Positions 7,080 through 20,738 of a stretch of 24,849 bases of DNA are shown piece by piece. Position 1 is the first letter of the stretch; each line of letters opens with the position of its first letter. The notes under the pieces were generated by a model, which saw only the letters and a list, made by a program, of their open reading frames with translations, did no database searches and had not been told where the DNA came from. The stretch covers positions 1 through 24,849 of IMG/VR virus record IMGVR_UViG_3300044970_001163; one strand, given 5' to 3'. The position numbers and the translations under genes were made by a program. The stretch is from a virus.

Positions 7080-7117
7080 TTTGTTTAGGTTTTGTTTTTT
7101 CAAATATCGGTAATATT

Positions 7118-8310: not shown

Positions 8311-8937
8311 TTATATATATTTAATTGTTCCTAATCTTTTTTTTACTTCTGCATCGTATTCCTCTAACCACTCTCGGCACTTAATAACCTTGTCGTATAT
8401 TTCCTGCTCTTTAGCTTCATCTCGCTTAAAAGAGTAAGCACACCATCTTTGGTTATTAGGTACTTTATCGTAGCTTATCTCTACACCATAATTAGCCTCA
8501 CTAGGCGTGTTCATTAGTGCATAGAATAGTATCGCTTCATCACACCCAGTTAATGCCATATATGCCCTTAATTGCCATTCGTAATCTGTGTTAATTCCTT
8601 CACTCGCTTCGATTAATGTTTTTCTATTCCAAGAGCATTTTAAGTCTATTACTTTGTTATCTATAATAACATCGGGAGTGCCTACTAGATAATCATTCGC
8701 AAATATGTTTATGTTTTTATCTGCAATCCCATAGCCTAATTCAGTAGCCATAAAATCAATAGCTTTATCTTCCATTAGAATACCCTTTGTCATATACTTG
8801 CTTTTTATATCCTCGAATGAATCAGAATACCATTCCTGCAAATAAGTCTTACAACCTGCCGATAGTTCGCCTTTTGTTTTTGCATTACTCATCAACTTAC
8901 CTAGAGCAGATGGTCTAGCCTTAAATATACGCTCCAT
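8311..8937 (-). CDS. YqaJ/lambda-exonuclease-like recombination nuclease
   Basis: A 208-residue protein with the PD-(D/E)XK nuclease core: Glu56 in MTKGILMEDKAIDF, then GTPDVI (Asp89), then VIDLKCSW (Asp98, Lys100). A QLRAYMALTG segment follows, the helix that carries a conserved Gln-x-x-x-Tyr in RecB/YqaJ-type nucleases. Such 5'-3' exonucleases generate single strands for the phage annealing protein. The start ATG shares a base with the stop of the ERF gene (TAATG), confirming the pairing. Length is near that of the lambda exonuclease (226 aa). Confidence 0.85.
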   Translation of the reverse strand: MERIFKARPSALGKLMSNAKTKGELSAGCKTYLQEWYSDSFEDIKSKYMTKGILMEDKAIDFMATELGYGIADKNINIFANDYLVGTPDVIIDNKVIDLKCSWNRKTLIEASEGINTDYEWQLRAYMALTGCDEAILFYALMNTPSEANYGVEISYDKVPNNQRWCAYSFKRDEAKEQEIYDKVIKCREWLEEYDAEVKKRLGTIKYI

Positions 8938-9470
8938 TACGCCTCTGTTAATTTAGCTAAAACATCAGGGCTAATATTGTACTTTTCTTGAATAGCTTTT
9001 AATTTTGTTTTATCAGCTAAAAATGCTTTTCTGCAATTAACAAAGTTATCAGAGTTTAACATCAGTTCAGGTTTAACTGCTTTTGCTCCTTGACTTGCTT
9101 TGTTACCATCATCATCTTCATCAATGTTTAGGTTTAAAATAGCACCTATTGCATATCTCCTTTGGTAGGTAATAACACTACCAGCATCTTGTGGGGAATG
9201 TTTTACTGGTTGCATCTCGTAGGTGCTTTGCATATATTCCCCTGATATATGTTGTAACCTCGTAGTTAGCTGATATAAGCCAGTAGGAAACTGAATAATA
9301 ATTAACCCACAATCAGTCAAAGGCTCTGTAATAACGTCTAATATAGTCGCTAATGAAGCGTACTTCGATTTAAAGAAAGGGTTATTATCTGATTTAATAA
9401 TTTTACCTACTTTTTTGTGGAACTCTAAAAGTGCCAATGGTAGTTGTTCTAATTTTTCGCTAGTTTGCAT
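8937..9470 (-). CDS. erf: ERF-family single-strand annealing protein
   Basis: A 177-residue member of the ERF superfamily: LPLALLEFHKKVGKI, then FFKSKYASLATILDVI (34-49) and a conserved tail of the domain DAGSVITYQRRYAIGAIL (95-112) followed by the acidic NIDEDDDGN. ERF proteins form rings on single-stranded DNA and anneal complementary strands, here working with the nuclease encoded next. The gene overlaps a 53-aa gene upstream by 11 bp. Closest known relatives are the P22 Erf group, but this version is at the short end. Confidence 0.9.
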   Translation of the reverse strand: MQTSEKLEQLPLALLEFHKKVGKIIKSDNNPFFKSKYASLATILDVITEPLTDCGLIIIQFPTGLYQLTTRLQHISGEYMQSTYEMQPVKHSPQDAGSVITYQRRYAIGAILNLNIDEDDDGNKASQGAKAVKPELMLNSDNFVNCRKAFLADKTKLKAIQEKYNISPDVLAKLTEA

Positions 9471-9621
9471 TTTTTAATCTGTTTAGATGTTCGTTAAATT
9501 TACTTTGTTCTTTTTCTCTGATTTGGTATTTTAAGTACTCGCCTTGTAATACCTTGTCTGCGTTTCTGTCGGCTCTCGCTTGGTCAGTTAAGCGTGTTAC
9601 CTTTTCTAATCGTTTATTCAT
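9460..9621 (-). CDS. Small charged helical protein, 53 aa
   Basis: ATG at 9621 lies within the end of the preceding gene (ATATGAATAA, 8-bp overlap), and the frame ends with TAG at 9460, overlapping the ERF start by 11 bp. The product is one long charged helix (MNKRLEKVTRLTDQARADRN ... YQIREKEQSKFNEHLNRL), likely a short coiled coil. No family is recognised. Overlaps at both ends, with no gap left, make it a probable gene. Confidence 0.62.
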   Translation of the reverse strand: MNKRLEKVTRLTDQARADRNADKVLQGEYLKYQIREKEQSKFNEHLNRLKNAN

Positions 9622-9844
9622 ATTTAAGTTCGCTTAAAAGTGTGTTAATTCTATTTCTTAACCTTGCTTTAATTAGTGCATAAGTTCCTAAATTCTGTGA
9701 GTGGAATGTTATACCATTATAAAGGTCATTGTGCATATTATGTTCTTGTAGGTATTCAATGCTTACCCTTTGTCTACGAGCAAGGTTTACCAGCATCACT
9801 TCGTAATCATTAAGCAATGCTAGTTTTTTTAGCCTATAATTCAT
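9614..9844 (-). CDS. Hypothetical protein, 76 aa
   Basis: A 76-residue helical protein (NYRLKKLALLNDYEVMLVNLARRQ, VSIEYLQEHNMHNDLYNG, LGTYALIKARLRNRINTLLSEL). No motif is recognised. It overlaps its neighbours by 11 bp upstream and 8 bp downstream, second in the operon that carries the recombination genes. Confidence 0.62.
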   Translation of the reverse strand: MNYRLKKLALLNDYEVMLVNLARRQRVSIEYLQEHNMHNDLYNGITFHSQNLGTYALIKARLRNRINTLLSELKYE

Positions 9845-10085
9845 CTTGTAAAGTTGTTACTAATTCTTGTAAATCGGGATGGTTGTAAAATCTCATTCTA
9901 TCAATAATCGCTAATTTTTGCGATAAGAATGAAGCGTTAAAAAAATCCATTGACATCGTGCGATATAAATGCTCGTTATAATCGCTTATACGAAAATCTA
10001 TTAGTTCGTTATCGCTTCTGCTGAATACTGGAGTTAATACACCTTGTGCATCTACTACCGTTGTTAGTTCTAAATCGTGTATCAT
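9834..10085 (-). CDS. Hypothetical protein, 83 aa, first gene of the recombination operon
   Basis: An 83-residue acidic protein starting MIHDLELTTVVDAQG, with a likely helical second half (YRTMSMDFFNASFLSQKLAII, DLQELVTTLQDEL). No family is recognised. It is the first gene after the palindrome-linked promoter and follows a leader of A-rich repeats (AAACAAAACAAAA) typical of efficient starts in Bacteroidota. Promoter-proximal position suggests high early expression. Confidence 0.62.
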   Translation of the reverse strand: MIHDLELTTVVDAQGVLTPVFSRSDNELIDFRISDYNEHLYRTMSMDFFNASFLSQKLAIIDRMRFYNHPDLQELVTTLQDEL

Positions 10086-10105: not shown

Positions 10106-10135
10106 CTAAATTAAGGTTATTTTTGCTCTTGTCAA
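10106..10135 (-). promoter_or_regulatory. Promoter of the recombination operon
   Basis: On the minus strand TTG (10135-10133, in the context ACTTGAC) is separated by 19 nt from TAATTTAG (10113-10106), one mismatch from TAnnTTTG. The palindrome ends exactly 35 nt before this -7 box. Transcription would start around 10100, about 15 nt before ATG 10085. Confidence 0.58.
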
Positions 10136-10148: not shown

Positions 10149-10165
10149 TTTAGAATTAGTCTAAA
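10149..10165. promoter_or_regulatory. 17-bp palindromic site, copy 1
   Basis: TTTAGAATTAGTCTAAA on the plus strand, with perfect 6-bp arms around ATTAG. It abuts the stop codon of the ParB-like gene and lies 35 nt before the -7 box of the next promoter. It is identical to the copy at 14869-14885. The following bases (AAATTGCAAATAA on the minus strand) also resemble those at the 12648 copy (AAATTGTAAATAA). Confidence 0.75.
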
Positions 10166-10708
10166 CTACTCCGATTTATCATTCCAAGCAGTTGAAAATT
10201 CAGTGTTTTGGAATAGTGCTGCAACTCCAGTAATTTGTTTTAATCTCAATAACTCATCTTTATCCATACCGATATGTCGTAATATCCAAGCATCTCCCAT
10301 CCCTGCTTCTGTTAAGTCCGATACGATGTTACTCATCAACTCTATTGAGTGTGACCCTCTTGCTCTATTGTGTCTAATAGTAGATGCCATACGATTAGAT
10401 AAATCTTTTTGTATAACTACTATTGGTAAAAATCCTTGCTCACGTTCATAAATACGCTCACTTGTTTTAAGCGTTGTATATCTATGGTATCCATCCACAA
10501 TCTCATAATGGTCGTGTTCTTCTACATAGTAACATACAATAGGCATCGTATAACCATCTTCCCATATTGATAATTCCAATAACTTCATTTCAGGTGGTGC
10601 TACTGCATTAGGGTTGTATGCGTTTGCTTTAATCTTTGATTCGTGCACTCTTTGAACTCCGTAAACTGGCGAAGTAAATTTTTGTTTTTGTTCTGTAAAT
10701 AGTTCCAT
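10166..10708 (-). CDS. ParB-like nuclease-domain protein (IbrB-like)
   Basis: A 180-residue protein with a ParB/sulfiredoxin-type domain: VHESKIKANAYNPN (strand and loop), an IWEDGYTMPIV strand, the signature EIVDGYHRYTT (Gly73, His75, Arg76), then RHNRARG (111-117), and a helical C-terminal part (IVSDLTEAGMGDAWILRHIG) that looks like the HTH of ParB. It lies 2 bp after a DUF3440 PAPS-reductase-family gene. The pair corresponds to IbrB and IbrA, first described as regulators of immunoglobulin-binding eib genes of E. coli. The ParB fold can bind or hydrolyse CTP or ATP; the role here is unknown. It is the last gene of its operon. Confidence 0.85.
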   Translation of the reverse strand: MELFTEQKQKFTSPVYGVQRVHESKIKANAYNPNAVAPPEMKLLELSIWEDGYTMPIVCYYVEEHDHYEIVDGYHRYTTLKTSERIYEREQGFLPIVVIQKDLSNRMASTIRHNRARGSHSIELMSNIVSDLTEAGMGDAWILRHIGMDKDELLRLKQITGVAALFQNTEFSTAWNDKSE

Positions 10709-10710
10709 TT

Positions 10711-12000
10711 TTATAGGTTTTTATATTTGTCTAATGCTTGTTTTTTTACTCTGTTTTGGTCTTTTGTTCTACTGCATCCCATATATTGAAGTGCGAAATC
10801 GTTTTTCATTATCGTTATACATACTGCTTTCCAACTTGGTATATGTCTAAAATCAAACTTCTTTGTTTCTTCGGGGAAATCGCTTTTAATTTTTACTATC
10901 TCATAGATATTATCTTTAGTACATAGCTTTGAAACCTCTTTAGTATTTTCAACTTCTAATCCTATATCCTGCATATACTTTATAACATCGGGATTTCTAC
11001 CATAACCCTTATCGACCCAACTTTTCTGAAATCTTTCTAAATGAAATTTAAACTTTTTTTTTGTCACTTCGGGTAATGTATCCATAAGGAAATAAGCGTA
11101 CTGCTTCCAAGTAAAATGTTCTGGCTTCGATATTGTTCGCCATCCCATAGCAGAAGTACCACCATAAATACCTCCAAAGTTACAACCATTAACCCTGCCA
11201 ACCATACGACCCCAGTTATTGGGGTCTATTACTCTGTAAAGTTTTAAATTATCCTGCCCTGATAAATGGAATGGGGATGCTACCCTCATTTGGTCTATTG
11301 TTAAACCTGCCTGATAGTATAAATCATAAATCTTATTATAGTCAAATTCATACTTTGCATTACATACCCATATATCCTCTGTTATCCAATCGTAAATTGG
11401 GTAAAAGTTTGTAGTATTTTTGTCCACTATTTTAGAATAGTTTAACCCCTTATGCATATGCTTTCTATGTTGCGAAGTAAAAATAGCACGTCTTGTCAAA
11501 CTTTCTTGTGCTCTAATTCCAATCAATACGGCAGTCTTACCATACTTATCCCCAAACCATTTAGAAAAATGTATCCTTGCATCAAAACCTTTAGTACCTT
11601 TAATAAATTCATAAGGGCAATTATCCTCATTAACTACATAGTCAAATTCAGGCATCGGTCTAACCCATATATCTTTCTTATCCTTATCCCAAGGTATCCA
11701 ACGTGGCTCATACATTGAAACAGAACAAGCAGCCGAAATAGGTAAACATAACCAATATTTACGCTCTACTTCTAAATCTCTAAAGGCTCTTTCTGCGTAC
11801 TCATCAGTATATCTGTATCCTGCTTCGTAATCTTCATAGTAAAATGCAAGTTTATGTAATAAATTATTTTCTTTAGCATACTTATACGCTAAATTTAACA
11901 CAATACCTGAATCTTTACCACACGAAAAGGCTACTAATACATTCTCAAAATCCCTGAAAATAATTTCTAATCTTTTTTGTGTTGCATCGTAAACGTTCAT
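10711..12000 (-). CDS. PAPS reductase-family / DUF3440 protein (IbrA-like)
   Basis: A 429-residue protein. The N-terminal PP-loop ATP-pyrophosphatase domain has FSCGKDS (25-31), the adenylylation loop shared by PAPS reductases, DndC and tRNA thiolases. The middle has IGIRAQESLTRRA, typical of the family, and FYPIYDWITEDIW. The C-terminal part (HIPSWKAVCITIMKNDFALQYMG) is the DUF3440 tail. IbrA of E. coli has this architecture. The chemistry is not settled: PP-loop enzymes activate a carbonyl, phosphate or sulfate group with ATP. Its neighbours are the ParB-domain gene, 2 bp downstream, and a small protein repeating its C-terminal module, coupled upstream (ATGA overlap). A metabolic sulfate-reduction role is less likely, because no other sulfur gene is present. 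Confidence 0.88.
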   Translation of the reverse strand: MNVYDATQKRLEIIFRDFENVLVAFSCGKDSGIVLNLAYKYAKENNLLHKLAFYYEDYEAGYRYTDEYAERAFRDLEVERKYWLCLPISAACSVSMYEPRWIPWDKDKKDIWVRPMPEFDYVVNEDNCPYEFIKGTKGFDARIHFSKWFGDKYGKTAVLIGIRAQESLTRRAIFTSQHRKHMHKGLNYSKIVDKNTTNFYPIYDWITEDIWVCNAKYEFDYNKIYDLYYQAGLTIDQMRVASPFHLSGQDNLKLYRVIDPNNWGRMVGRVNGCNFGGIYGGTSAMGWRTISKPEHFTWKQYAYFLMDTLPEVTKKKFKFHLERFQKSWVDKGYGRNPDVIKYMQDIGLEVENTKEVSKLCTKDNIYEIVKIKSDFPEETKKFDFRHIPSWKAVCITIMKNDFALQYMGCSRTKDQNRVKKQALDKYKNL

Positions 12001-12260
12001 AAGTTTAATTTAAGTTGGTAATTATATTTTTTTCTTTGTGATAGTTCTATTTTTTTGAACTCGTGATATACTGGTATTTTATTTTGTGGTAATCCTAATG
12101 TTTTTAATGAAAAATCATTCTTTAAAATAGCTATACAAATTTGTCTATAAGATGGAACTTTATTTAATTGTTCTAATCTCAAAGGTGCTTCATCAGGTAT
12201 TCCATTGTAATAACACTTGGTTTCCCATTCCTGAATATACTTGTTTATTTTTATTTTCAT
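11997..12260 (-). CDS. Small DUF3440-tail-like protein, 87 aa
   Basis: An 87-residue protein whose centre, VPSYRQICIAILKNDFSLK (about 35-53), aligns with IPSWKAVCITIMKNDFALQ near the C-terminus of the neighbouring PAPS-reductase-family protein, including the PS, ICI/VCI, KNDF and following LG/MG positions. It looks like a free copy of that tail module, preceded by YNGIPDEAPLRLEQLN. It overlaps the big gene by 4 bp (ATGA) and is overlapped by the 135-aa gene by 68 bp. Whether it acts as a second subunit is unknown. The similarity is visible by eye and not proven by alignment score. Confidence 0.68.
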   Translation of the reverse strand: MKIKINKYIQEWETKCYYNGIPDEAPLRLEQLNKVPSYRQICIAILKNDFSLKTLGLPQNKIPVYHEFKKIELSQRKKYNYQLKLNL

Positions 12261-12600
12261 AAATATTTACTATTTTATCTGCTATTAAATTTGCTCTATA
12301 TCTTTGCTCATCTGTTAACATAGCCCAACTTTTTCGAGTAGTTAGTTCGTTATTACCATACAAATAGCAGCAACTTGCTTGACCTATCCACGCTTGTTTA
12401 TTGCAACTATTATTACTTAAATTAATATTAGTAGCAACAACCCAATTAGTAATAACATTAAAAGCAGTTTTGAAAAACATATTTTCATTAGCTAATAATT
12501 CAGCGCCTTTTATAATATCACTATCTATTGGAGTAGTAAGTGTATACATCCCATTTTTATAATCTTCCCACTCTGTATAAGGTGTATATATTTGTTTCAT
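12193..12600 (-). CDS. Hypothetical protein, 135 aa, first gene of the IbrAB-like cassette
   Basis: A 135-residue protein (start ATG 12600; a longer frame would need TTG). It begins QIYTPYTEWEDYKNGMY and contains AFNVITNWVVATNINLSNN, then NKQAWIGQASCCYLYG with a Cys pair, then ELTTRKSWAMLTDEQRYRAN. I recall similar proteins accompanying DUF3440/ParB pairs in phages, but cannot name a domain. Predicted to be mostly helical and cytoplasmic. The -7 box lies only 4 nt before the ATG, so its mRNA may be leaderless. The 68-bp overlap with the next gene is unusually long. Confidence 0.7.
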   Translation of the reverse strand: MKQIYTPYTEWEDYKNGMYTLTTPIDSDIIKGAELLANENMFFKTAFNVITNWVVATNINLSNNSCNKQAWIGQASCCYLYGNNELTTRKSWAMLTDEQRYRANLIADKIVNIYENKNKQVYSGMGNQVLLQWNT

Positions 12601-12604
12601 AAAG

Positions 12605-12634
12605 CGAAAATACAAGTACTTTTTATAAGTAAAG
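12605..12634 (-). promoter_or_regulatory. Promoter of the IbrAB-like cassette
   Basis: TATTTTCG (12612-12605, one mismatch from TAnnTTTG) sits exactly 35 nt after the palindrome on the minus strand. The -33 region reads CTTTAC and is weak. With transcription starting 5-7 nt after the box, the message would begin at or near ATG 12600. Confidence 0.5.
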
Positions 12635-12647
12635 AATTTATTTACAA

Positions 12648-12664
12648 TTTAGAATGATTCTAAA
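12648..12664. promoter_or_regulatory. 17-bp palindromic site, copy 2 (perfect)
   Basis: TTTAGAATGATTCTAAA is a perfect palindrome with two 8-bp arms around one central base, the most symmetric of the four copies. It starts 3 bp after the stop codon of the upstream operon and lies upstream of the IbrAB-like cassette. Confidence 0.78.
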
Positions 12665-12667
12665 TAA

Positions 12668-12865
12668 TTACTTCCTTTTTTGTTTAAAACTATCTACCTG
12701 CTTAAACTTGCTTTTTTGCTTGTCAATTTCATTGGTTATAATAAAGGCTAAATACGATGATAGATTTTTGGCACTAATCCATCTTTTAGTATTCTCATTA
12801 TAATACCAGTTTTCAGACTTTGGTATAATGTAAGGAAATTGCTCTTTTAGTCGTTTTAAATCCAT
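12668..12865 (-). CDS. Hypothetical protein, 65 aa
   Basis: A 65-residue basic protein (MDLKRLKEQFPYIIPKSENWYY, then WISAKNLSSYLAFIITNEID and a Lys-rich end). No family is recognised. It closes the operon that begins with the AP2-like gene, 48 bp after the winged-helix-like gene. Its stop is 3 bp from a palindromic site. Confidence 0.6.
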   Translation of the reverse strand: MDLKRLKEQFPYIIPKSENWYYNENTKRWISAKNLSSYLAFIITNEIDKQKSKFKQVDSFKQKRK

Positions 12866-12913
12866 TTTAAGCCATTTTTAAATATATGTTACTACTAATA
12901 CATCTTATCACTG

Positions 12914-13576
12914 CTAAACTAATAGCTTAATTACAGAACCATCACAAATGAAATTACCTATTTCTAATCTTAATAGTCTATTATCTTCAAATCGGTCGAA
13001 GTTTTTAGAAAAAGATACCTTTCTTTCTATGAATTTTAATTTCGCCCACTTTACTAATAGCTTATAAGCCATCCCTTGTGATACTCCTAATAATTTACTG
13101 ATATGCTTTTGACCTGTTACTATTGATTTATTTACTGATTGAACACTTAAATTGTTATTATAAAAGCGATATTCTGCTTTTCTGATGTATTGCCCAGTTT
13201 CAATCTTATTTTTAATCTTAAAGTATTTGGTCTTTTGCTTTATTTTAAATTCTTGTCGCTTATAATTTGCTCGTGCGATTATGTATAGATTTCTTTCTAC
13301 TAACTCGGTTAAATTGCCAAATTTACAGAAAGAATATTGTTTTATATTTTCGAGTCCAAGAATAGCAAGTATTTTACTATATGGTGCTATTTTAAAGCCA
13401 TTAGGGGTAACTTCTATTAAATTATGATTAATACCATAGTTAATTAGTTTTCGTGCTTTATAATCGCTTATTTTGAGTTTTTTAGATATTTCGTGTTTAG
13501 AACCAATAAGTACAGAATTTACATACTGCCTTTTCGCAGTAAAAGTAAACGATACAAAATTGATTTTATCTAACAT
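12914..13576 (-). CDS. Putative helix-turn-helix DNA-binding protein, 220 aa
   Basis: The ATG at 13576 lies 1 nt past the HNH stop, preceded by GGAG inside that gene's last codons; a longer start at 13588 would need TTG. Two HTH-like segments are seen: HEISKKLKISDYKARKLINYG (near the N-terminus, with a NLIEVTPNGFKI wing) and QKHISKLLGVSQGMAYKLLVKW (C-terminal, with FIERKVSF as wing). The middle is basic (NYKRQEFKIKQKTKYFKIK). Two winged-helix units with a basic linker suggest a phage replication initiator or regulator. I cannot name a family. It is a candidate for the protein that binds the palindrome. Confidence 0.65.
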   Translation of the reverse strand: MLDKINFVSFTFTAKRQYVNSVLIGSKHEISKKLKISDYKARKLINYGINHNLIEVTPNGFKIAPYSKILAILGLENIKQYSFCKFGNLTELVERNLYIIARANYKRQEFKIKQKTKYFKIKNKIETGQYIRKAEYRFYNNNLSVQSVNKSIVTGQKHISKLLGVSQGMAYKLLVKWAKLKFIERKVSFSKNFDRFEDNRLLRLEIGNFICDGSVIKLLV

Positions 13577-13577
13577 A

Positions 13578-14285
13578 TTATTCTCCAAACTCGTTTAAAA
13601 AATCTGTATTTATTTCTTTTGATGACTTTTTAAGTTTACTTTCTTTTGGTAGTTCCTCTTTTAAGTCTATTATTTTATTTTTATTGTAGATAATACCAAC
13701 TTGTTTAAGAAATTCAGATGGTAATAAACTCCCTTTCATTCTATTACAAATCATACAAGATGCTACTAAATTAGCAAAAGTATTTTTACCTCCTCTAGAT
13801 AATGGTATATAATGGTCTAACTCCCATTTCCTTACGTGTAAACTACAATTACAATATACACAACTAAAATCTGAAAATTTTAGAATAGTTAATACTTGTA
13901 ATTCTGTTATTTGGCTGTTATCTCTAGAATTAGCACTTTGTGCTTTTTGTTTACATTGATACCTAACTAAAAATTCATTATCCTTTTTAGATACAAATTT
14001 ATTTGTAGTAAAAGGGACTACTGAAATATTTGAATAAGGTAATCTATCATTTACAATTTTATAAGTTATATTATCTTTTGGGGTAAATTTAATATTAAAA
14101 TATTCAATCATTAGATTTAATAAATCATACTCAATATTATCTATAATATAGGTTATTTTTTGTGCCCTATAATTTACTTTTTTATTTACTCCTATTTGCT
14201 TATGATTATATTCACGAAATATAAATCCATCTTTATGTATAAAGTATGTAGGATGATTTTTAAGTGGTTTTATTTTATTATCCAT
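13578..14285 (-). CDS. HNH endonuclease, probably a homing endonuclease, 235 aa
   Basis: The nuclease core lies at residues 142-184: CVYC (142-145), WELDHYIPLSRGG with the Asp157-His158 pair, KNTFANLVASC, and CMICN (177-181). The N-terminal 100 residues start HPTYFIHKDGFIFREYNHKQIG, which resembles NUMOD4-like DNA-reading modules, so site recognition probably lies there. The C-terminal 45 residues are Lys/Glu-rich. It follows an AP2-like gene in the same operon, a combination common in mobile endonuclease units. Its ATG lies 4 nt past a terminator-like hairpin with a T-run, so it may be expressed only after read-through. The nuclease residues are intact. Confidence 0.85.
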   Translation of the reverse strand: MDNKIKPLKNHPTYFIHKDGFIFREYNHKQIGVNKKVNYRAQKITYIIDNIEYDLLNLMIEYFNIKFTPKDNITYKIVNDRLPYSNISVVPFTTNKFVSKKDNEFLVRYQCKQKAQSANSRDNSQITELQVLTILKFSDFSCVYCNCSLHVRKWELDHYIPLSRGGKNTFANLVASCMICNRMKGSLLPSEFLKQVGIIYNKNKIIDLKEELPKESKLKKSSKEINTDFLNEFGE

Positions 14286-14288
14286 AAT

Positions 14289-14327
14289 GAAAAAGCCTTG
14301 AACTAGTGTCGTAAGAGTATCAAGGCT
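14289..14327 (-). terminator. Terminator-like hairpin just before the HNH gene
   Basis: On the minus strand AGCCTTGA (14327-14320) pairs with TCAAGGCT (14301-14294), an 8-bp stem with an 18-nt loop, followed by a run of five T. It ends next to the HNH ATG (14285). The loop contains CTTACGAC, complementary to the loop of the hairpin at 14360-14381. Either a terminator of the AP2-like gene or a regulated attenuator. Confidence 0.65.
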
Positions 14328-14359
14328 GTAGATATTTGGATAATATTTTTGCAGAATCT

Positions 14360-14381
14360 TAAACGCTTACGACTTCGTTTA
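14360..14381 (-). other. Hairpin with a loop complementary to the terminator loop
   Basis: TAAACG-AAGTCGTAAG-CGTTTA on the minus strand, a 6-bp stem and 10-nt loop. Eight loop bases, GTCGTAAG, are perfectly complementary to CTTACGAC in the loop of the downstream terminator-like hairpin (14308-14315). The two could form a kissing-loop contact in the RNA between the AP2-like and HNH genes. Prediction by complementarity only. Confidence 0.5.
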
Positions 14382-14402
14382 CACAAAATTACGCTTTTAC
14401 TT

Positions 14403-14648
14403 TTACATTTCAAAATTTATTTTCTTTAATGTATTATTCACTTGTGGCTTACCTGCTTTGATAAATTCCATATCTATCTTTTTCGCTGCCTCTTTTGGTG
14501 TTTCAAAGTAATAGCAAGTATCTTTTCCGTTTAGCCTTATTTTAGCTTCGTAGCATTTAACACCTGACCGATTAATAATAGCGTAAACGTATTTATAACC
14601 AGTATCTTCTTTTATCCTTGTGGCTGTTTTTCTTTGTCCGTAATTCAT
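14403..14648 (-). CDS. AP2-domain-like DNA-binding protein, 81 aa
   Basis: An 81-residue basic protein with an AP2-like layout: strands YKYVYAIINRSG and CYEAKIRLNGKDTCYYFET followed by a helix TPKEAAKKIDMEFIKAG, similar to the 'three strands, then EAA..D helix' of AP2/ERF-type domains. In phages these domains accompany HNH nucleases and read the target DNA; here the domain is its own gene two steps upstream of an HNH protein. ATG 14648 follows a long structured leader. It has few strong sequence signatures, so other small DNA-binding folds are possible. Confidence 0.65.
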   Translation of the reverse strand: MNYGQRKTATRIKEDTGYKYVYAIINRSGVKCYEAKIRLNGKDTCYYFETPKEAAKKIDMEFIKAGKPQVNNTLKKINFEM

Positions 14649-14825
14649 AATTTTAGTTTAATGGGGGACTTTTCAAAGTGCCTACAACAACATTATTTAA
14701 TTTGTCCCCCGATAAATTGATAATAACACCTTGAATTTTCAAGACTATGTTATTCAAACCCTTAACAAACAATAAAAATTAGTTAAAATCTTTTTGGGTA
14801 TAAAGAACGCTCCTTGTCGGGAATC
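14649..14825 (-). other. Structured non-coding leader upstream of the AP2-like gene
   Basis: No ORF fits this interval. On the minus strand it contains a nested hairpin (AATAACA/TGTTATT, 14722-14728 with 14748-14754, enclosing CTTGAA-AA-TTCAAG, 14730-14743) and then a 7-bp all-purine/pyrimidine pair GGGGGAC/GTCCCCC (14704-14710 with 14663-14669) across a 34-nt loop. The latter stem ends 14 nt before the ATG. With transcription from the -7 box at 14826-14833, the 5' leader would be about 170 nt, unusual in this compact genome. The role (riboregulation or origin) is unknown. Confidence 0.5.
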
Positions 14826-14833
14826 CAAAAGTA
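14826..14833 (-). promoter_or_regulatory. -7 promoter box for the AP2/HNH operon
   Basis: TACTTTTG on the minus strand matches TAnnTTTG fully, and lies exactly 35 nt after the palindrome ending at 14869. The -33 region is a run of T (no clear TTG). Initiation would be near 14820. Confidence 0.58.
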
Positions 14834-14868
14834 TAAAATTATTTGATTGCTTTATAAAAAAAGTGATA

Positions 14869-14885
14869 TTTAGAATTAGTCTAAA
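14869..14885. promoter_or_regulatory. 17-bp palindromic site, copy 3
   Basis: TTTAGAATTAGTCTAAA, identical to the copy at 10149-10165, although the two loci share little else. It sits directly after the T-run of the spanin-gene terminator and upstream of the AP2/HNH operon promoter. Confidence 0.75.
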
Positions 14886-14886
14886 C

Positions 14887-14912
14887 AAAAAGGTAGCATT
14901 TCTACTACCTTT
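14887..14912 (-). terminator. Rho-independent terminator after the spanin-like gene
   Basis: On the minus strand AAAGGTAG-TAGAAATG-CTACCTTT forms a stem of 6 bp plus two A-T pairs, followed by further T to give a T5 run. It lies 38 bp after the stop at 14951 and ends the operon that starts at 17359. Confidence 0.78.
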
Positions 14913-14950
14913 CCGACCTAAACAAAACTATATGAAAACACCCAAAAATA

Positions 14951-15343
14951 CTACTTTCTTATCAAAAATCCAATTATTCCACCAAATATAAGTAATACCC
15001 ACCAAAAACGATTTAAAGACTTTATAGGCTCTTTAACCACCTCTTTGGTATCTTTGCTAACTTTTATATCTTTCGTGCCCTGTAGCGTCTTATTTTGGCT
15101 TTCTACGGCTATTATTCGCTTGATATTGGTTATGTACTCTTTTCTGATAGTATCGTAGATAGTTTCATACTCGAAAATCGTTTCATTTCTTACGCTATCC
15201 TTAATCGAGTAAACCTCTTTAACCACGCTATCTATTCGTTGCTCTGTAACGTGCTTTGTTTTGCATCCACATAATACCATTAAGTAGATAATTGCTATGT
15301 AAATAAGTAGAAGTCTATCTATTGCTTTTAGTTTCATATTCAT
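14951..15343 (-). CDS. Putative u-spanin (unimolecular spanin), 130 aa
   Basis: The N-terminus carries a hydrophobic signal (LLLIYIAIIYLMVLCGC, 11-27) ending in a lipobox-like LCGC, so Cys27 would be lipidated. A periplasmic, charged/coiled region follows (residues 30-110), and the C-terminus is a transmembrane segment FWWVLLIFGGIIGFLI (113-128). A lipoprotein end in the outer membrane plus a C-terminal inner-membrane anchor is the topology of u-spanins such as T1 gp11, which fuse inner and outer membranes in the last step of lysis. It may start at M3 (15337). It overlaps the DUF3310 gene by 29 bp and lies apart from the holin-endolysin cluster. Topology supports the call; sequence does not name it. 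Confidence 0.72.
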   Translation of the reverse strand: MNMKLKAIDRLLLIYIAIIYLMVLCGCKTKHVTEQRIDSVVKEVYSIKDSVRNETIFEYETIYDTIRKEYITNIKRIIAVESQNKTLQGTKDIKVSKDTKEVVKEPIKSLNRFWWVLLIFGGIIGFLIRK

Positions 15344-15710
15344 CTATTAAAAAATCTATGTATTGCTTTGCTTTTTTTAAGTCCTCTACTCCGTTTTTCT
15401 CTTTGTATCGGCAAATGTATTTTATTACGTTGCCCTCGTTATACCCAAGTTTATTTTTAGTGATAAACTCAATAGGCTGGATGGCTAACTTTGAGTAGTG
15501 AGTAGGGTTAATATTGTCGTTTACTTCTAATGTAGTGCTTATGTTATTAAATATATCTTCAAAGTATTTTAAATCAAGTACAGCATCATAACCATCTTCT
15601 GCTTTAAATTTAACTGAATTACCAATTAATATAGCATCATATATTATCCCCTCTCTTGTAAATGGTAGTATAGTATAATTTGCTTTCAATTTTACTTTTT
15701 TTGTTTCCAT
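15315..15710 (-). CDS. DUF3310 family protein, 131 aa
   Basis: The C-terminal half matches DUF3310: NPTHYSKLAIQPIEFI (about 68-83), GYNEGNVIKYICRYKEKNG (90-107), then EDLKKAKQYIDFLIDEY (109-125), with the conserved PxHY, GNxxKYxxR and EDLKKA motifs. Members are common in tailed phages, sometimes annotated as nucleotide kinase-like, with no proven function. The N-terminal 65 residues are not part of the family and look beta-rich (TILPFTREGIIYDAILIGNSV). It is coupled to both neighbours by overlaps of 19 and 29 bp. Confidence 0.85.
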   Translation of the reverse strand: METKKVKLKANYTILPFTREGIIYDAILIGNSVKFKAEDGYDAVLDLKYFEDIFNNISTTLEVNDNINPTHYSKLAIQPIEFITKNKLGYNEGNVIKYICRYKEKNGVEDLKKAKQYIDFLIDEYETKSNR

Positions 15711-15808
15711 TTTTCTGCTTGTTTAGTTCTTATTAGTTTTTTTTTACTTTCAATTTGTTTGTACAAATCTTTTATTTCCTCTATTAGTTTTTCGATTTCA
15801 TTCGTCAT
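15692..15808 (-). CDS. Small coiled-coil protein, 38 aa
   Basis: ATG at 15808 overlaps the end of the preceding acidic gene (11 bp), and the frame ends at TAA 15692, 19 bp into the DUF3310 gene. The product is a single Lys/Glu-rich helix, MTNEIEKLIEEIKDLYKQIE then SKKKLIRTKQAEKWKQKK, with heptad-spaced Leu/Ile. Overlap at both ends in a packed operon supports a gene. No family is recognised. Confidence 0.62.
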   Translation of the reverse strand: MTNEIEKLIEEIKDLYKQIESKKKLIRTKQAEKWKQKK

Positions 15809-16004
15809 CTTCAAATTTAAAAAATTCAAGTCGTTGTTTAATTAGGTCTATTAGTGTTCGTTGCATTTCTTGGCTTTCATTAGGGTAAAGATTAAATTTT
15901 TGGTCTTCTAATTTCATTGCCATATCAAAGAATAATTCAAGTTCCACTAGGGTTTGTGAATCTTCAATTTCCTCAATGTTGTCTATATTTGTTTCATCAG
16001 CCAT
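15798..16004 (-). CDS. Acidic protein, 68 aa
   Basis: A 68-residue, strongly acidic protein (MADETNIDNIEEIEDSQTLVE, then FFDMAMKLEDQKFNLYPNES and a helix to FKFEDDE). No family is recognised. It lies 30 bp after the phosphoesterase gene and is overlapped by the 38-aa gene at its end. Acidic phage proteins of this size can mimic DNA or bind partner proteins, but this is not supported further. Confidence 0.62.
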   Translation of the reverse strand: MADETNIDNIEEIEDSQTLVELELFFDMAMKLEDQKFNLYPNESQEMQRTLIDLIKQRLEFFKFEDDE

Positions 16005-16034
16005 ACTACAAATTTACGATTTTATAGCCACCTA

Positions 16035-17225
16035 TTAAAATATGTTTGTAATTCGTGCTATTTGTCCTTGCTCTTTGTGGTGGATAAACGCTTCAATAGC
16101 TTTAGGTGCGTGTTGATATCCGTTTCTGTGATGCCAACTATCTGTACCTGATGGACTTCTAAAACTCTCTACACATACGCTTCCGTAATCCTTTGCTTTC
16201 TTATGATGGATATGAGAAATATAAACGTATCTATGTTTTGATGTATGCCAATGCTCTGATGCCTCTTGTGCCATCAGTAAAGGTAAATCAGTTTCTTTTG
16301 CACCATCGCCGTGAGTAGTGCCAATTAAATTGCTACCATACTGGAAATATTTTCTATGCTGAATACCTACGTTAAACGTAATGTTTTTGCAATTTCTAAA
16401 CCAAGCGTTTATAGTTTGTGCTAAAAAGAATCCATTTGTATAATCGTGATTAGAACTATCAAACTGAATGTGTATAGGTGCTATTTGCATAAGCATTTCA
16501 ATAACTTCAATGTATAGCTTTTGAGCAAGTAAGAAGTTATCAAACCACATACCATCGGTATCTTGTGGAGTTCCACTCGTTGTCGTTCTTTTAGTGTTAT
16601 CAACGTGTAAAATATCATTTCCTATAACGAATAATATCTTATCAATATTAAACCCTTTAGACTTCTCTAAAATGCCTAAAATACCATCCTTAACTCGTTT
16701 AATAATTAAGTCGTTATTATGTGCATCGTTTGTTTCAAACTCACTCGCTAATTTCCCTATATGGATATCAGCAGGATTAATTACTAAAAGGTTTGCATCC
16801 TTTAGTTTTGGATACTTAATCGCAGGGTATTGTATTTTCTTTTTGTCAATGTAAGTAAATAACTCTTTTTCAAACAAATCAAAAGGTTTAGTTTTATTAC
16901 CTACGAATAGAGAAAAATGCTCACTCTTAAACCAATAGTGTTTTACCTCATCTTTTGGTATTCCTTTTTCTTCACACTCTTTCACAAGTGCATCGTGCTT
17001 ATCTCTATACTCGTTAATGATTGCTAACTCATCTAAAGTAACTGGAATTGTTTTCGTTTCAAGTGTTTCGTTATCTCTTAAATAATCCCTTACTGATTGT
17101 CTAGCACTTTCTGTACTTTTGAATATATTAGGGTATTTAGATTTTAGATACTTTGCGTATCCTGCCTGACTTTTGTCTTTATTGAAAACATCTATATTAG
17201 TTTCAATAATTTCTTTTCGTGTCAT
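16035..17225 (-). CDS. Calcineurin-like metallophosphoesterase, 396 aa
   Basis: I choose ATG 17225 because it overlaps the stop of a 45-aa gene as ATGA; a longer frame would start at 17333. The C-terminal 250 residues carry the metallophosphoesterase motifs in order: PADIHIGK (Asp153, His155), IGNDILH (Gly-Asn-Asp 202-204), SNHD (258-261), GTTHGDG (His305) and ISHIHHKK (His338, His340). This is the dinuclear metal site of the SbcD/Mre11-like and related enzymes. The N-terminal part (TRKEIIETNIDVFNKDKSQAG ... SARQSVRDYLR) may be a DNA-binding helical segment. Probably a nuclease or phosphodiesterase; substrate unknown. No SbcC partner is present. Confidence 0.85.
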   Translation of the reverse strand: MTRKEIIETNIDVFNKDKSQAGYAKYLKSKYPNIFKSTESARQSVRDYLRDNETLETKTIPVTLDELAIINEYRDKHDALVKECEEKGIPKDEVKHYWFKSEHFSLFVGNKTKPFDLFEKELFTYIDKKKIQYPAIKYPKLKDANLLVINPADIHIGKLASEFETNDAHNNDLIIKRVKDGILGILEKSKGFNIDKILFVIGNDILHVDNTKRTTTSGTPQDTDGMWFDNFLLAQKLYIEVIEMLMQIAPIHIQFDSSNHDYTNGFFLAQTINAWFRNCKNITFNVGIQHRKYFQYGSNLIGTTHGDGAKETDLPLLMAQEASEHWHTSKHRYVYISHIHHKKAKDYGSVCVESFRSPSGTDSWHHRNGYQHAPKAIEAFIHHKEQGQIARITNIF

Positions 17226-17359
17226 AAGTTTCGTGAATAAAGTGAGATTTCTATATCGTTTGCTAGTGTGATTTCGTCTTCTGATACGATGCCCTTGATA
17301 ATAGCGTAATACGTTATTAGCCCGTTCCAGCATATTATATCCATATTGTCGAACTGCAT
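17222..17359 (-). CDS. Small protein, 45 aa, first gene of its operon
   Basis: ATG at 17359 opens a 45-codon frame ending in TGA, which overlaps the ATG of the phosphoesterase gene. The product MQFDNMDIICWNGLITYYAI then IKGIVSEDEITLANDIEISL looks like a compact helical protein with one hydrophobic stretch. No family is recognised. The 4-bp coupling and the palindrome-linked promoter just upstream support expression. A competing frame for this interval is the 5' extension of the phosphoesterase. Confidence 0.62.
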   Translation of the reverse strand: MQFDNMDIICWNGLITYYAIIKGIVSEDEITLANDIEISLYSRNL

Positions 17360-17364
17360 CGGTG

Positions 17365-17394
17365 CAATTTACAAACGAAAAACTACTTAAACAA
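17365..17394 (-). promoter_or_regulatory. Probable promoter of the phosphoesterase/spanin operon
   Basis: TTG (17394-17392) stands 14-16 nt after the palindrome, the same register as in the 10149 copy, and a TAAATTG (17371-17365) lies where the other copies have their -7 box. The -7 match is poor (one T short), so this promoter is the weakest of the four on sequence. An alternative box TTCGTTTG lies a few nt upstream. Confidence 0.35.
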
Positions 17395-17407
17395 GTATTT
17401 TATTACA

Positions 17408-17424
17408 TTTAGAATTGTTCTAAA
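17408..17424. promoter_or_regulatory. 17-bp palindromic site, copy 4
   Basis: TTTAGAATTGTTCTAAA, with perfect 7-bp arms around three bases. It lies 16 bp after the endolysin stop and upstream of the operon starting with the 45-aa gene. Confidence 0.75.
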
Positions 17425-17440: not shown

Positions 17441-17893
17441 TTAGTTACTATAATACAATTCTGCTTCGGCTTTTCTTCTTCTCGTAAGCCCAGAGATTTC
17501 TTTTCCACCTGCTTTATTCCATCGTAAAAATTGATTAAATATAGCTTCTGATGTTGGCATAGCCTTGACAAGTTTTAATAGCGTAGAAGTCTTTAAATTG
17601 CCTAATCCACAATTATAAGCGAATGATACCAAAGCATCAAATTGATTTTGATTGAGTTTAGTTTTTCCTATTAACTCGTTTACTCCTTTTTCAAACTTCT
17701 GTAAATCGTGCATTAAATATTCCTTTGCTTGTTCTAATGTTATTGGTTTGTCGGTCATTGAAACCTTTACTCCGTTTGGGTAAATCGTTGTTCCTACTCC
17801 GATTGTCGCAACATTCGCAGAGCATAGATAAGGCTTTGTTCTTATACCCTCAAAAGCAATGATAAACTCAATACCTTTTTTACTTATCTTCAT
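17441..17893 (-). CDS. Endolysin, GH24 (T4-lysozyme-like), 150 aa
   Basis: A 150-residue GH24 muramidase: GIEFIIAFEGIRTKPYL with catalytic Glu15, then ATIGVGTT with Thr30, the DAL-x-SFAYNCG helix motif (around 87-96), and FLRWNKAGGKEISGLTRRR (122-140). At the position of the catalytic Asp (T4 Asp20) it has Cys24; the spacing Glu15-Cys24-Thr30 equals that of T4 Glu11-Asp20-Thr26. No signal peptide is visible, so export needs a holin. Its start overlaps the 69-aa membrane protein gene by 4 bp. The enzyme cleaves the glycan backbone of peptidoglycan at lysis. Confidence 0.93.
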   Translation of the reverse strand: MKISKKGIEFIIAFEGIRTKPYLCSANVATIGVGTTIYPNGVKVSMTDKPITLEQAKEYLMHDLQKFEKGVNELIGKTKLNQNQFDALVSFAYNCGLGNLKTSTLLKLVKAMPTSEAIFNQFLRWNKAGGKEISGLTRRRKAEAELYYSN

Positions 17894-18099
17894 TTGCTAT
17901 GTACTGATTTTGTGTTTGTCCAAAATTTAATGCCAACTAATAGCACAGTAAAAATAAACGTAACCCAATATTTAGGTTTATCACTTATCGGCATAGAATC
18001 CAACATCGGCTGAATAGCCACTAATAGTACTAGGGCAAAGTCGCCAACTTGTCGCCAATACTTCGGCGTAGGTTCTGAATATCTTTTCTGTAAACTCAT
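17890..18099 (-). CDS. Putative holin, two-TM, 69 aa
   Basis: Two hydrophobic segments, FALVLLVAIQPML (about 21-33) and WVTFIFTVLLVGIKFW (45-60), joined by a short turn PISDKPK, with basic residues at both ends: class II holin topology. It is directly followed by the endolysin gene with a 4-bp overlap and preceded by another small membrane protein gene. Holins time lysis by making lesions in the inner membrane that release the endolysin. The sequence names no family, so the role is inferred from topology and position. Confidence 0.75.
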   Translation of the reverse strand: MSLQKRYSEPTPKYWRQVGDFALVLLVAIQPMLDSMPISDKPKYWVTFIFTVLLVGIKFWTNTKSVHSK

Positions 18100-18347
18100 T
18101 TTAAATAGTCTTTAATTATTGGTAAAATTTTAGAACCTAATGGGATAGTACCACAAGACAATATCCCCACAAGCATCCACATATACTTTTCTAATTTAAA
18201 TAATTTCTTTTCAAGATTACTCAAACGAGTTATTACACCAGCACCAGTCAAATCAGTATCAACTAAAGTATTGTATAAACCATCTACTTTATGTAGCACC
18301 TCTGTCATTTGAGCATTTAGCCGTATTAGTTCATCCCTTTCGCTCAT
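18096..18347 (-). CDS. Membrane protein with coiled coil, holin-like, 83 aa
   Basis: The first 50 residues form a helical coiled-coil-like stretch (ERDELIRLNAQMTEVLHKVDG, then ITRLSNLEKKLFKLEKY), then one membrane segment MWMLVGILSCGTIPLG (about 56-71) and a short tail. A cytoplasmic coiled coil before one TM is the layout of XhlA-type lysis proteins, which partner a two-TM holin, here encoded next (4-bp overlap). Could be a second holin, an antiholin or a regulator of the first. It is coupled to the lipase gene upstream. Confidence 0.7.
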   Translation of the reverse strand: MSERDELIRLNAQMTEVLHKVDGLYNTLVDTDLTGAGVITRLSNLEKKLFKLEKYMWMLVGILSCGTIPLGSKILPIIKDYLK

Positions 18348-18967
18348 AACTTATTAATATATTCATCTATATCGTGGTCGTAAAATGGATTGAACTTTTG
18401 TCCTTTACTCCACGCCTTTAAATGTGATTTTATCCTATCAAAAAATTTAATACTACTATGTTTTTTACCATCGTAATCTAAATAAACTAATTCTCCAAAA
18501 TGCTTATAACCTAAACTTGGTAACTGCGTAACGATGTCGTTATTGTTTCTTACTCGTGTATGGTTTACTTTTACTTTAGCGTGTTTATCCATTACCATTG
18601 GGCATCCATAAGTAACACTCGTACCCTCAATGTATAACCCTGAAATAAATGCCAAAGCACCTCCGTAAGAATGTCCAGTAAAATAAATAGGTTTATTAGG
18701 TAAGTTATCTCTTAACTCCCTTGCTATTAAATCCCACGACTTTTTAAACCCCTTGTGCATCTTACCGTAAACCGTATCAGTAAAACCTGCTTGGAGATTA
18801 TATGCCCAGTCTTTAGGCTCATCAGAACCTCTAAAAACGACTACACACGCTTCGCCAACTTCAAGAATATAAGCCTGAACTCCACGCTTGTTAATAGTGT
18901 GTAAGACTTTATAATCAAACACACCACTATAAGCCCCTTTCGATATACTAGCTAATTGCTTCAGCAC
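18344..18967 (-). CDS. Class 3 lipase-family hydrolase in the lysis cassette
   Basis: A 207-residue alpha/beta hydrolase with the lipase_3 pattern: CVVVFRGSDEPKDWAYNLQ (41-59), HKGFKKSW (71-78), the nucleophile elbow GHSYGGA (98-104, Ser100), then NNNDIVTQLP (141-150, Asp144) and DHDIDEYI (197-204, His198). A Ser-Asp-His triad of this layout fits lipases and phospholipases. The start is GTG 18967, because a stop codon lies immediately upstream and no early ATG exists. There is no signal peptide. It is coupled (ATGA) to the holin/endolysin genes, so it may attack membrane lipids during lysis. Substrate is unknown. Confidence 0.88.
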   Translation of the reverse strand: MLKQLASISKGAYSGVFDYKVLHTINKRGVQAYILEVGEACVVVFRGSDEPKDWAYNLQAGFTDTVYGKMHKGFKKSWDLIARELRDNLPNKPIYFTGHSYGGALAFISGLYIEGTSVTYGCPMVMDKHAKVKVNHTRVRNNNDIVTQLPSLGYKHFGELVYLDYDGKKHSSIKFFDRIKSHLKAWSKGQKFNPFYDHDIDEYINKL

Positions 18968-19154
18968 CTAAACTAGATAAAACAACCTCAAATAAATTTT
19001 CTTCTGTAATGCTTCCATCTGTTGCCATTTGCCCACTTCCTACTTCTTCTTCGGTAGCATCAAACAACTGATAAGTAATTACATTTTCTTTTAATTGTGC
19101 ATCAACAAAACAAACCTCGTTGTTTGCGATTACCTTACTCTGAATCTTTACCAT
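18948..19154 (-). CDS. Hypothetical protein, 68 aa
   Basis: A 68-residue acidic protein with a beta-rich first half (VKIQSKVIANNEVCFVDAQL, VITYQLFDATEEEVGSGQM) and a helical end (EENLFEVVLSSLGAEAI). No family is recognised. It lies between a 51-aa gene and the lipase gene with overlaps of 20 bp at each end. Perhaps a minor virion component, given the block it lies in, but that is not shown. Confidence 0.65.
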   Translation of the reverse strand: MVKIQSKVIANNEVCFVDAQLKENVITYQLFDATEEEVGSGQMATDGSITEENLFEVVLSSLGAEAIS

Positions 19155-19290
19155 TTGTTAATTCGTTAATTTCGTTTGTTAAATTTTGCAATGCGACTGC
19201 AATAGTTGCTGAATCACTTAATGTATAAGCCCCTGCTTTGTTAGCGATTTCCAACGCTTGTGCGATTGTTTGTAAATTTTCTGTTATCAT
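19135..19290 (-). CDS. Small protein after the fibre gene, 51 aa
   Basis: ATG 19290 starts 2 bp after the fibre stop; the frame runs 51 codons to TAA 19135 and overlaps the next gene by 20 bp. The product, MITENLQTIAQALEIANKAG then AYTLSDSATIAVALQNLTNEI, is a helical protein with a pattern I recall from small ORFs next to phage fibre genes in Bacteroidota (ALxxANxxGAYxLxDA). It could be a chaperone or trimerisation partner for the fibre. The function is unknown. Confidence 0.65.
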   Translation of the reverse strand: MITENLQTIAQALEIANKAGAYTLSDSATIAVALQNLTNEINELTNGKDSE

Positions 19291-19292
19291 AA

Positions 19293-20738
19293 TTATACGT
19301 TTGTTGCTAATAAATAATATGTTACCCCACCAATAACGATTGTTACTTTATGTGTGCTTGGTGTTGCTACTGATGCAGCTACTGTATTACCGATTGCTAA
19401 TGCACCCGTAACCCTTGCAGTTCCAGTTACTTGTAATTTTTCTGCCCCTGCTAATGGTGTTGAACTACCTATTTGCAAATTTCCATTTAAAAAACTTGCA
19501 GCAGTACCATTCATATATAAATTCCAATTAGTAGATGCCGATGGTAAATTACCATAGAACCCATAATTATTCGTACCTCCTACAATAGAACTATCTGCAA
19601 TGTACCCAAATTGATTTGTAACCGTAGACCCTGCACCAAACGACGAAACAGATGCTTTAAAATGATATAAATTTGTAAGAGTGAATGCAGTTGCTTGTGT
19701 TGATGCTAATGATTCAAAGTATCCAACATTTGCGGTTACATCACTTTGAATTTGCCCTTGTGAGAAAATATTAGAAACAGTTGTTGAACCCGTTATACTT
19801 CTATTAACCCTTAAATTAAATCCAGTTAGTGAAGATGTACCTATCCCTAATTTATCAAATTGTGGTGCTGAACTTGTCGCAATACTTTGTGGCAAACTCA
19901 ATGTAATACTCCCTGATGCGTTTGTAACTGTAATTTGATTTGCAGTTCCAGTTAGTGCAGCAGCTACATAGTTAGTCCCGTTTCCAATCGGTAAAAATCC
20001 ATTGCTTGGTGTTGTTGTTATCCCTAATCCTCCATTGCCAACTGCTAATGTTCCTGAAATATGAGTAGTTAACCCTATTTTGCCCCAACTTGGAGCAGCC
20101 CCAACACCTCCCGAAATTAATGAGTTACCAGTTGCAACACCTGCTAATTTACTCAAAGCAGAACTCGTAGAAGCGTATAAAATATCCCCTATTGCGTAAC
20201 TTGATTGTCCAGTACCTCCATTAGGTGCAGTCAAGGCAGCCGTTAAACTTAAAGCAGCAAATGTAGGACTTGAAGTTGTAGCTAAACTTTGTGGCAAAGC
20301 TAATGTAATACCACCAACCGAATGAGTAACTGTTACTTGGTTTGTAGTACCTGCTAATGTTTTATATTCTTGTGCTGTTGCAGCATTATTCATTCCTAAT
20401 AATTGGTTTGCAGTTCCTTTGGCTAAATTTACCCAATTAGTACCATTATACACAAAAATATCCCCTTGTGCAACGCTTGTTAAAACAACATCAGTTAACC
20501 CATCTAAATTAAAATTGGCATTTACCCATTTAAAAGTAACCGTATCCCATTGTAAAACTTGTTTATCTTGAATAGTAGTAATTACTACATCCTGCAACTC
20601 CTCTAATGATAATGTTTCGGCTATTACTATCCGTAAATCATCTATTGAGATTTCTCCATATTCGGCAGTAGTCCCAACTAAAACTATCGTTGGCTTGTTT
20701 ATTGAAGTAAATAACGTACCATCATCGTATCTTGGCAT
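19293..20738 (-). CDS. Phage tail-fibre or surface protein with repeats, 481 aa
   Basis: A low-complexity, Ser/Thr/Gly/Asn-rich structural protein. The N-terminus has a pair of repeats of the form L-x-DV-x-x-T ... WVN (48-73 and 81-105). The central region has two copies of a longer unit, GTTNQVTVTHSVGGITLALP at 130-149 and GTANQITVTNASGSITLSLP at 264-283, each followed by Q-S-hydrophobic-A-T. GGTGQSSYAIGDILYAS is characteristic of phage fibre proteins. The C-terminal half is a beta-rich region ending KVTIVIGGVTYYLLATNV, possibly the tip. It probably makes an elongated trimer. Receptor unknown; it could equally be a neck fibre. Confidence 0.82.
   Translation of the reverse strand: MPRYDDGTLFTSINKPTIVLVGTTAEYGEISIDDLRIVIAETLSLEELQDVVITTIQDKQVLQWDTVTFKWVNANFNLDGLTDVVLTSVAQGDIFVYNGTNWVNLAKGTANQLLGMNNAATAQEYKTLAGTTNQVTVTHSVGGITLALPQSLATTSSPTFAALSLTAALTAPNGGTGQSSYAIGDILYASTSSALSKLAGVATGNSLISGGVGAAPSWGKIGLTTHISGTLAVGNGGLGITTTPSNGFLPIGNGTNYVAAALTGTANQITVTNASGSITLSLPQSIATSSAPQFDKLGIGTSSLTGFNLRVNRSITGSTTVSNIFSQGQIQSDVTANVGYFESLASTQATAFTLTNLYHFKASVSSFGAGSTVTNQFGYIADSSIVGGTNNYGFYGNLPSASTNWNLYMNGTAASFLNGNLQIGSSTPLAGAEKLQVTGTARVTGALAIGNTVAASVATPSTHKVTIVIGGVTYYLLATNV

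Follow-up and report, generated by a model that had tools for sequence, protein, structure and literature searches.

What protein controls the non-structural operons of a virus whose operon starts carry one and the same palindrome? The question is raised by IMG/VR virus record IMGVR_UViG_3300044970_001163 (positions 1 to 24,849, analysed whole as a 24,849-nt stretch and called the window here), which comes from a virus of Flavobacteria-like bacteria. An earlier note on this DNA had placed a 17-bp dyad at 10149, 12648, 14869 and 17408, and a sequence scan of the window returned exact copies at all four coordinates. In 300 dinucleotide shuffles the pattern TTTAGA-N5-TCTAAA occurred on average 0.007 times per shuffled window, with a maximum of 1, vs 4 in the window, and no same-arm 6-5-6 palindrome of any kind exceeded three copies. 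We propose that the dyads are Fur-box-type operators built into five phage promoters, where host Fur probably binds and activates transcription.

Every exact copy reads TTTAGAnnnATTCTAAA on the minus strand, which makes it asymmetric in the direction of transcription, and all genes downstream of the dyad sites are on that strand. As described before, the first and third copies by coordinate are identical and the second has perfect 8-bp arms. The dyads had also been taken to be exclusively intergenic and limited to four. All four exact copies are indeed intergenic, the one at 10149 abutting the stop codon of the open reading frame (ORF) at 10166-10708. A fifth copy with one mismatch had been overlooked, however, at 7144-7160 (plus strand TTTGGAATCGTTCTAAA), and this one lies within the last codons of ORF 7118-7549. 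The stretch that holds the lysis, tail and capsid genes (17441-24766) contains no dyad. The five sites and their promoter boxes, in the order of transcription, are as follows.

17408-17424, minus strand: Fur-box-like dyad TTTAGAACAATTCTAAA, site 1 in transcription order, conserved in related loci L006-L013, L016 and L041
17364-17371, minus strand: -7 box TAAATTGC, 36 bp from the dyad, with a TTG at 17392-17394, about -33
14869-14885, minus strand: Fur-box-like dyad TTTAGACTAATTCTAAA
14826-14833, minus strand: -7 box TACTTTTG, 35 bp from the dyad
12648-12664, minus strand: Fur-box-like dyad TTTAGAATCATTCTAAA, perfect 8-1-8
12605-12612, minus strand: -7 box TATTTTCG, 35 bp from the dyad
10149-10165, minus strand: Fur-box-like dyad TTTAGACTAATTCTAAA, adjoining the stop codon of the ParB-like gene
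10130-10135, minus strand: -33 element TTGACA of the site-10149 promoter
10106-10113, minus strand: -7 box TAATTTAG, 35 bp from the dyad
7144-7160, minus strand: fifth dyad TTTAGAACGATTCCAAA, one mismatch, at the 3′ end of the DnaA-C-like ORF 7118-7549
7101-7108, minus strand: -7 box GATATTTG, 35 bp from the fifth dyad (TAAATTTG in the relative L009)

As this arrangement shows, a -7 box of the form TAnnTTTG (at most one mismatch) stands exactly 35 bp downstream of the dyad at four of the five sites, a spacing that the earlier note did not contain. At the fifth, 17408, the box is of the TAnnTTGY / TAnnTTGC type and lies at 36 bp; the Flavobacterium psychrophilum promoter motif SM5, TAnnTTGY, occupies -12 to -5, the same position as TAnnTTTG (PMC9723704). 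The spacing played no part in selecting the window dyads, and only a handful of other -7 matches with at most one mismatch fall within 90 bp after them, so that chance does not account for the same distance at four of the five. A -33 TTG, expected about 19-20 bp upstream of the -7 box, was seen at only two sites, 10149 and 17408. Between the dyad and this TTG downstream of it are about 13 bp, and both the -33 and -7 boxes are left free; with a gap of 35 bp (36 at one site), the dyad has its centre around -56, further upstream than the -33 element. A sigma-70 consensus scan gave no enrichment, which is the expected outcome for Bacteroidota. The window dyads belong to Bacteroidota sigma-A promoters, and the dyad-promoter is a real, conserved promoter element.

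This anatomy bears directly on whether the palindromes mark operon ends as terminators or RNA hairpins. They do come after stop codons and, transcribed into RNA, could fold with energies of -3.7 to -9.1 kcal/mol, yet each lies upstream of a promoter at a fixed distance, as do the host copies described below, and we find this explanation hardly credible. The Rho-independent terminator was rejected as a candidate: the arms are A+T-rich with no T run following, no dyad was among the terminator-like matches, and an Rfam search of the window gave no match.

Conservation was assessed in relatives, defined as phages found via two window proteins. Across 115 related viral loci the exact real arms occurred 34 times, vs 0-6 times for each of the remaining 59 arm permutations, and the fifth dyad is conserved as well. 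The dyad-promoter units are kept even where neighbouring genes have been replaced; for example, the upstream gene differs between the window and L010. The proposal that a dispersed operator is common to several operon starts is thus upheld by the relatives. In the viral_contigs collection, dyad-N34-36-TAnnTTTG was present in at least 119 stretches, vs 2 with a permuted dyad arm, and genome_contigs gave at least 119 matches, mostly from Bacteroidota. The consensus across unrelated phage units is tTATTTAGAaTnATTCTAAATt...TAtaTTTG. A viral scan for the dyad only showed no peak at 34-36 bp among the first 120 matches listed, where other kinds of phage predominate; spacing was instead checked on the opposite sides of dyads, and on non-index dyads, within dyad-bearing phages. 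The phages with the nearest terminases (Flavobacterium phage 11b, Cellulophaga phi10:1 and Polaribacter P12002L) contain no exact dyads, and the dyad trait is therefore not tied to terminase kinship.

Near-identical blocks of dyad, promoter and leader precede different genes in L012, L148 and L152, and also occur in L122, L147, L149, L165 and L173, as if promoter-leader blocks were used as exchange boundaries. The blocks might accordingly be kept mainly as homology islands for gene exchange between phages, as one leader before different genes in the first three loci, and one promoter after different upstream genes in the window and L010, would allow. However, spacers differ between unrelated phages while the dyad and the -7 box are kept, and exchange leaves unexplained both the Fur-box match and the dyads at haem and Fe-S genes of unrelated hosts. 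We regard this as very improbable.

What, then, is the dyad? By sequence comparison it is that of the Fur box of Riemerella anatipestifer, ATTTAGAATTATTCTAAAT, at which Fur binding was demonstrated by gel shift (PMC5609570). The Flavobacteriales-type 19-bp Fur box, ATTTAGAATnATTCTAAAT, has its core TTTAGAnnnATTCTAAA at four window sites and with one mismatch at the fifth, the left inner bases varying, and the outer A...T of the 19-mer is enriched in phage and host sites even though it lay outside the search pattern. Host chromosomes use the dyad as well. Genes behind host units of dyad, 34-36 bp and -7 box include those for NuoB, CcoS, NrfH, NqrA, HemA and a MauG-like cytochrome; when spacing is ignored, exact host dyads precede hemA, sufS, nrfH and the genes for an ApbC-like Fe-S carrier, a ferredoxin and a SPOR-domain protein. 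A degenerate Fur-box search of 41 Flavobacteriaceae genomes found most of them enriched relative to a reversed control, with TonB receptors, imelysin and DUF4856/DUF6607 genes on the acquisition side and SdhC-like, NqrA, ferredoxin and multihaem cytochrome c genes on the iron-using side. The same dyad therefore stands before host iron-related genes of both sorts (TonB receptors, imelysin, HemA, SufS, NuoB, NrfH, CcoS and NqrA). The suggestion of a Fur/PerR-type protein, which the earlier note had left as an alternative, gains from both the published Fur box and this host use before haem, Fe-S and respiratory genes.

Two recurrent host arrangements were also observed. In Flavobacteriaceae L639, L640, L641, L659, L664 and L699, a small SPOR-domain gene and a multihaem cytochrome c gene diverge from a region with one Fur-box-like dyad, and the cytochrome gene likely belongs to an alternative complex III operon. 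In L362, L372, L383, L635 and others, hemA and a gene of about 297 aa resembling an AraC-type regulator diverge with a dyad between them; these dyads have no exact -7 box at 34-36 bp.

The dyads could instead be read by a regulator of the phage's own, as in a classical phage regulon, since one phage holds several operon-start sites. Candidates would be the helix-turn-helix (HTH) 224-aa ORF 12914-13588, the DnaA-C-like ORF 7118-7549 or the ParB/IbrB-like protein, and the window does encode HTH-type proteins outside the FUR family. The IbrB-like ParB was rejected as the dyad reader: 75 loci with ParB relatives (L046-L120, at most 83% identical) hold one exact dyad only. A phage-private regulon, which the earlier note had likened to the stoperators of L5-like phages, is not supported, because the dyads are promoter parts at a fixed distance to the -7 box rather than scattered silencers, and because the dyad-promoter unit also precedes host haem, Fe-S and respiratory genes. 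The dyad and its spacing are common to unrelated phages and host chromosomes, and the operator is not confined to close relatives. Moreover, none of the 31 dyad-bearing phage records examined, the window included, encodes a FUR-family protein. By comparison, a canonical Fur is encoded once in each of the ten host genomes examined, and in six of these it is the only FUR-family protein. The lack of Fur in the window, which may be an incomplete record, and in 30 other dyad-bearing records makes a host regulator most likely, and a phage-encoded one appears quite improbable.

Some support for a phage-encoded reader does come from Polaribacter phages in which a gene for a Fur-type protein lies beside the dyads. 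When about 22,000 viral ORFs were searched with a custom profile, the only FUR-like proteins were those of two isolated Polaribacter phages, Freya_1 (43,978 bp) and Danklef_2 (47,302 bp). Each carries a 23-bp dyad in two exact copies and one near copy, with 4-17 bp to -7 boxes, together with a gene whose annotation is ferric uptake regulator (Freya_1 L632:4082-4510; Danklef_2 L634:44922-45350). The protein scores 32 bits against PF01475, above the cut-off, over the DNA-binding half only; its alignment to host Fur shows RVSRAT in common and apparently none of the HDH-type metal ligands. No relatives of the Freya Fur gene were found in viral_contigs. These phages link dyad and Fur family inside one phage and offer a cultivable system.

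Returning to host Fur as the probable reader, we hypothesize that a dimer of host Fur, or possibly of another host Fur-family protein, would bind the dyad and leave the -33 and -7 boxes uncovered. From about -56 the bound dimer could touch RNA polymerase and raise transcription, in which case the phage operons would be strongest while Fur is active, in iron-replete, respiring cells. The dyad sequence and placement suggest that host iron status serves the virus as a timer or gate for its genes.

Whether Fur would activate or repress can be approached through the gap between dyad and -7 box in hosts, measured on sites collected irrespective of a -7 box and read wherever they had an exact one. 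The gap is 0-29 bp for acquisition-type genes and 37-58 bp for iron-using genes. The two classes separate (12 vs 9 sites, Fisher 3e-6; 4 vs 4 families, p = 0.029), a test that is modest because the threshold was picked after seeing the data, the labels were assigned by us from Pfam and translations, and orthologous sites are non-independent. The phage gap of 35 bp is near the iron-using class; for the SPOR gene, which is transcribed away from the cytochrome operon, the gap is 34-47 bp. The same Fur boxes might nevertheless repress, in which case Fur of an iron-replete host would close the phage promoters, and they would open when iron runs short or Fur is depleted in the course of infection. 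Fur of R. anatipestifer is known as a repressor of uptake genes, its published sites, given as repressor sites, lying no more than 100 bp from the ATG of iron genes (PMC5609570), and the short gaps of Freya_1 and Danklef_2 would also suit repression. However, the window dyads lie well clear of the -33 TTG, and in hosts it is the iron-using genes that have upstream gaps of 34 bp and more and the acquisition-type genes that have short ones. We consider repression at the window promoters unlikely.

Several observations weigh against activation by host Fur. Host genomes rarely hold exact dyads, the 8-1-8 form turning up about once in 17 Mb, and their boxes are mostly degenerate. Among host sites collected without selection for spacing, gaps of 33-34 bp come from the SPOR gene only. 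The R. anatipestifer sdh, nuoG, cco and nrf transcripts drop under iron restriction in a fur mutant too, so that dependence on Fur does not simply explain how iron-using genes respond to iron in that species. In other phages many dyads lie 15-17 bp from a -7 box, over the -33 region, which looks repressive; of 92 opposite sides, which had played no part in selecting the phage dyads, 11 had a -7 box at 15-17 bp, against a background of 0.0013 per position. Because of such sites, the regulator may act both ways. Finally, the exact 17-mer TTTAGAATNATTCTAAA, often flanked CTAG...CTAG, occurs in phages unlike Bacteroidota phages (L390-L506) and in the isolated Pelagibacter phages HTVC033P and HTVC309P, where it is possibly an Irr-type site for a conceivable Irr-like regulator, and hence sequence alone does not name the binding protein.

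Several phage dyads lie between two divergent promoters, with gaps of 35 and 15 bp, where one protein could activate one promoter and repress the other. Taking these geometries together, we speculate that Flavobacteriia Fur follows a rule of position, a scheme of four parts that is plausible although, taken whole, we lean slightly towards doubting it. Under such a rule, Fur would activate from dyads whose distance to the -7 box is 34-58 bp and increases by about 11 bp at a time (35, 46, 57), and would repress from those at 29 bp or less. Phages of many families would have taken up the activating position to gate their operons by iron status. Dyads between divergent promoters (35 bp on one side, 15-17 on the other) would form a host-run switch. 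Lastly, the Fur-type gene of a few phages, apparently without the metal-binding half, could compete for the same boxes.

Which genes would such promoters serve? The operon starts are non-structural: a repair exonuclease with small genes, an HNH endonuclease, an IbrAB-like pair, Erf/exonuclease recombination, and small genes behind the fifth site, an operon that may run on into terminase and portal.

17222-17359, minus strand: 45-codon ORF (MQFDNMDI...), absent from the ORF list, first ORF of the site-17408 operon, conserved in relatives
16035-17333, minus strand: DNA repair exonuclease / metallophosphatase (PHROG 704), site-17408 operon
13578-14285, minus strand: HNH endonuclease, site-14869 operon, with 81-aa, 224-aa and 65-aa ORFs
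10711-12000, minus strand: PAPS-reductase-like and DUF3440 protein (IbrA-like), site-12648 operon
10166-10708, minus strand: ParB-like protein (IbrB-like), last gene of the site-12648 operon
8311-10085, minus strand: site-10149 operon, with small ORFs, an Erf-like annealing protein (8937-9470) and an exonuclease (8311-8937)
6774-7079, minus strand: first ORF past the fifth promoter, 101 aa, followed by small ORFs, terminase (2622-3914) and portal (683-1975)

The true start of the exonuclease gene (MTRKEII...) is probably at 17225, overlapping the stop of the 45-codon ORF. A leader of about 180 nt (14649-14825) separates the site-14869 promoter from its first ORF and contains the stem CGGGGGAC...GTCCCCC. 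In some phages, the annotation of the IbrA/IbrB-like pair (10166-12000) is co-activator of prophage gene expression.

Iron is limiting in many of the waters where Bacteroidota phages live. If upstream Fur boxes drive core operons, the infection programme of many such phages would be tied to host iron status, giving a simple, testable link from iron to phage productivity. Bacteroidota genetics would also gain a defined promoter of the activator type, together with a rule relating the action of Fur to its position.

Among known systems, the stoperators of L5-like mycobacteriophages bind the phage's own repressor and are mostly within transcription units. They resemble the window dyads in being a short operator repeated across a phage genome, whereas the window copies are promoter parts and no phage repressor gene is known to match. 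The stx1 promoter of Shiga-toxin prophages places a phage-borne gene under host Fur, as we propose for the window; there, one cargo toxin gene is repressed, while the window has several non-structural operons with the box in an upstream position. The R. anatipestifer Fur box shares dyad sequence and length, fitted by the window dyads with few changes, and comes from the Flavobacteriales, like many of the host genomes; the window dyads differ in being phage-borne, present five times and fixed at 35-36 bp from the -7 box. A functional analogue would be Irr, a Fur-family protein of Alphaproteobacteria that activates or represses through the iron control element (ICE) depending on site position (PMC7762939). 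Both cases would involve a Fur-family dimer whose sign is set by dyad position, with haem and iron-protein genes as targets, although Irr belongs to a different phylum from the window's hosts. Host Fur boxes on phage promoters are an already-known kind, and the interest of the present ones lies in their repetition on core operons, their fixed spacing and their breadth across Bacteroidota phages.

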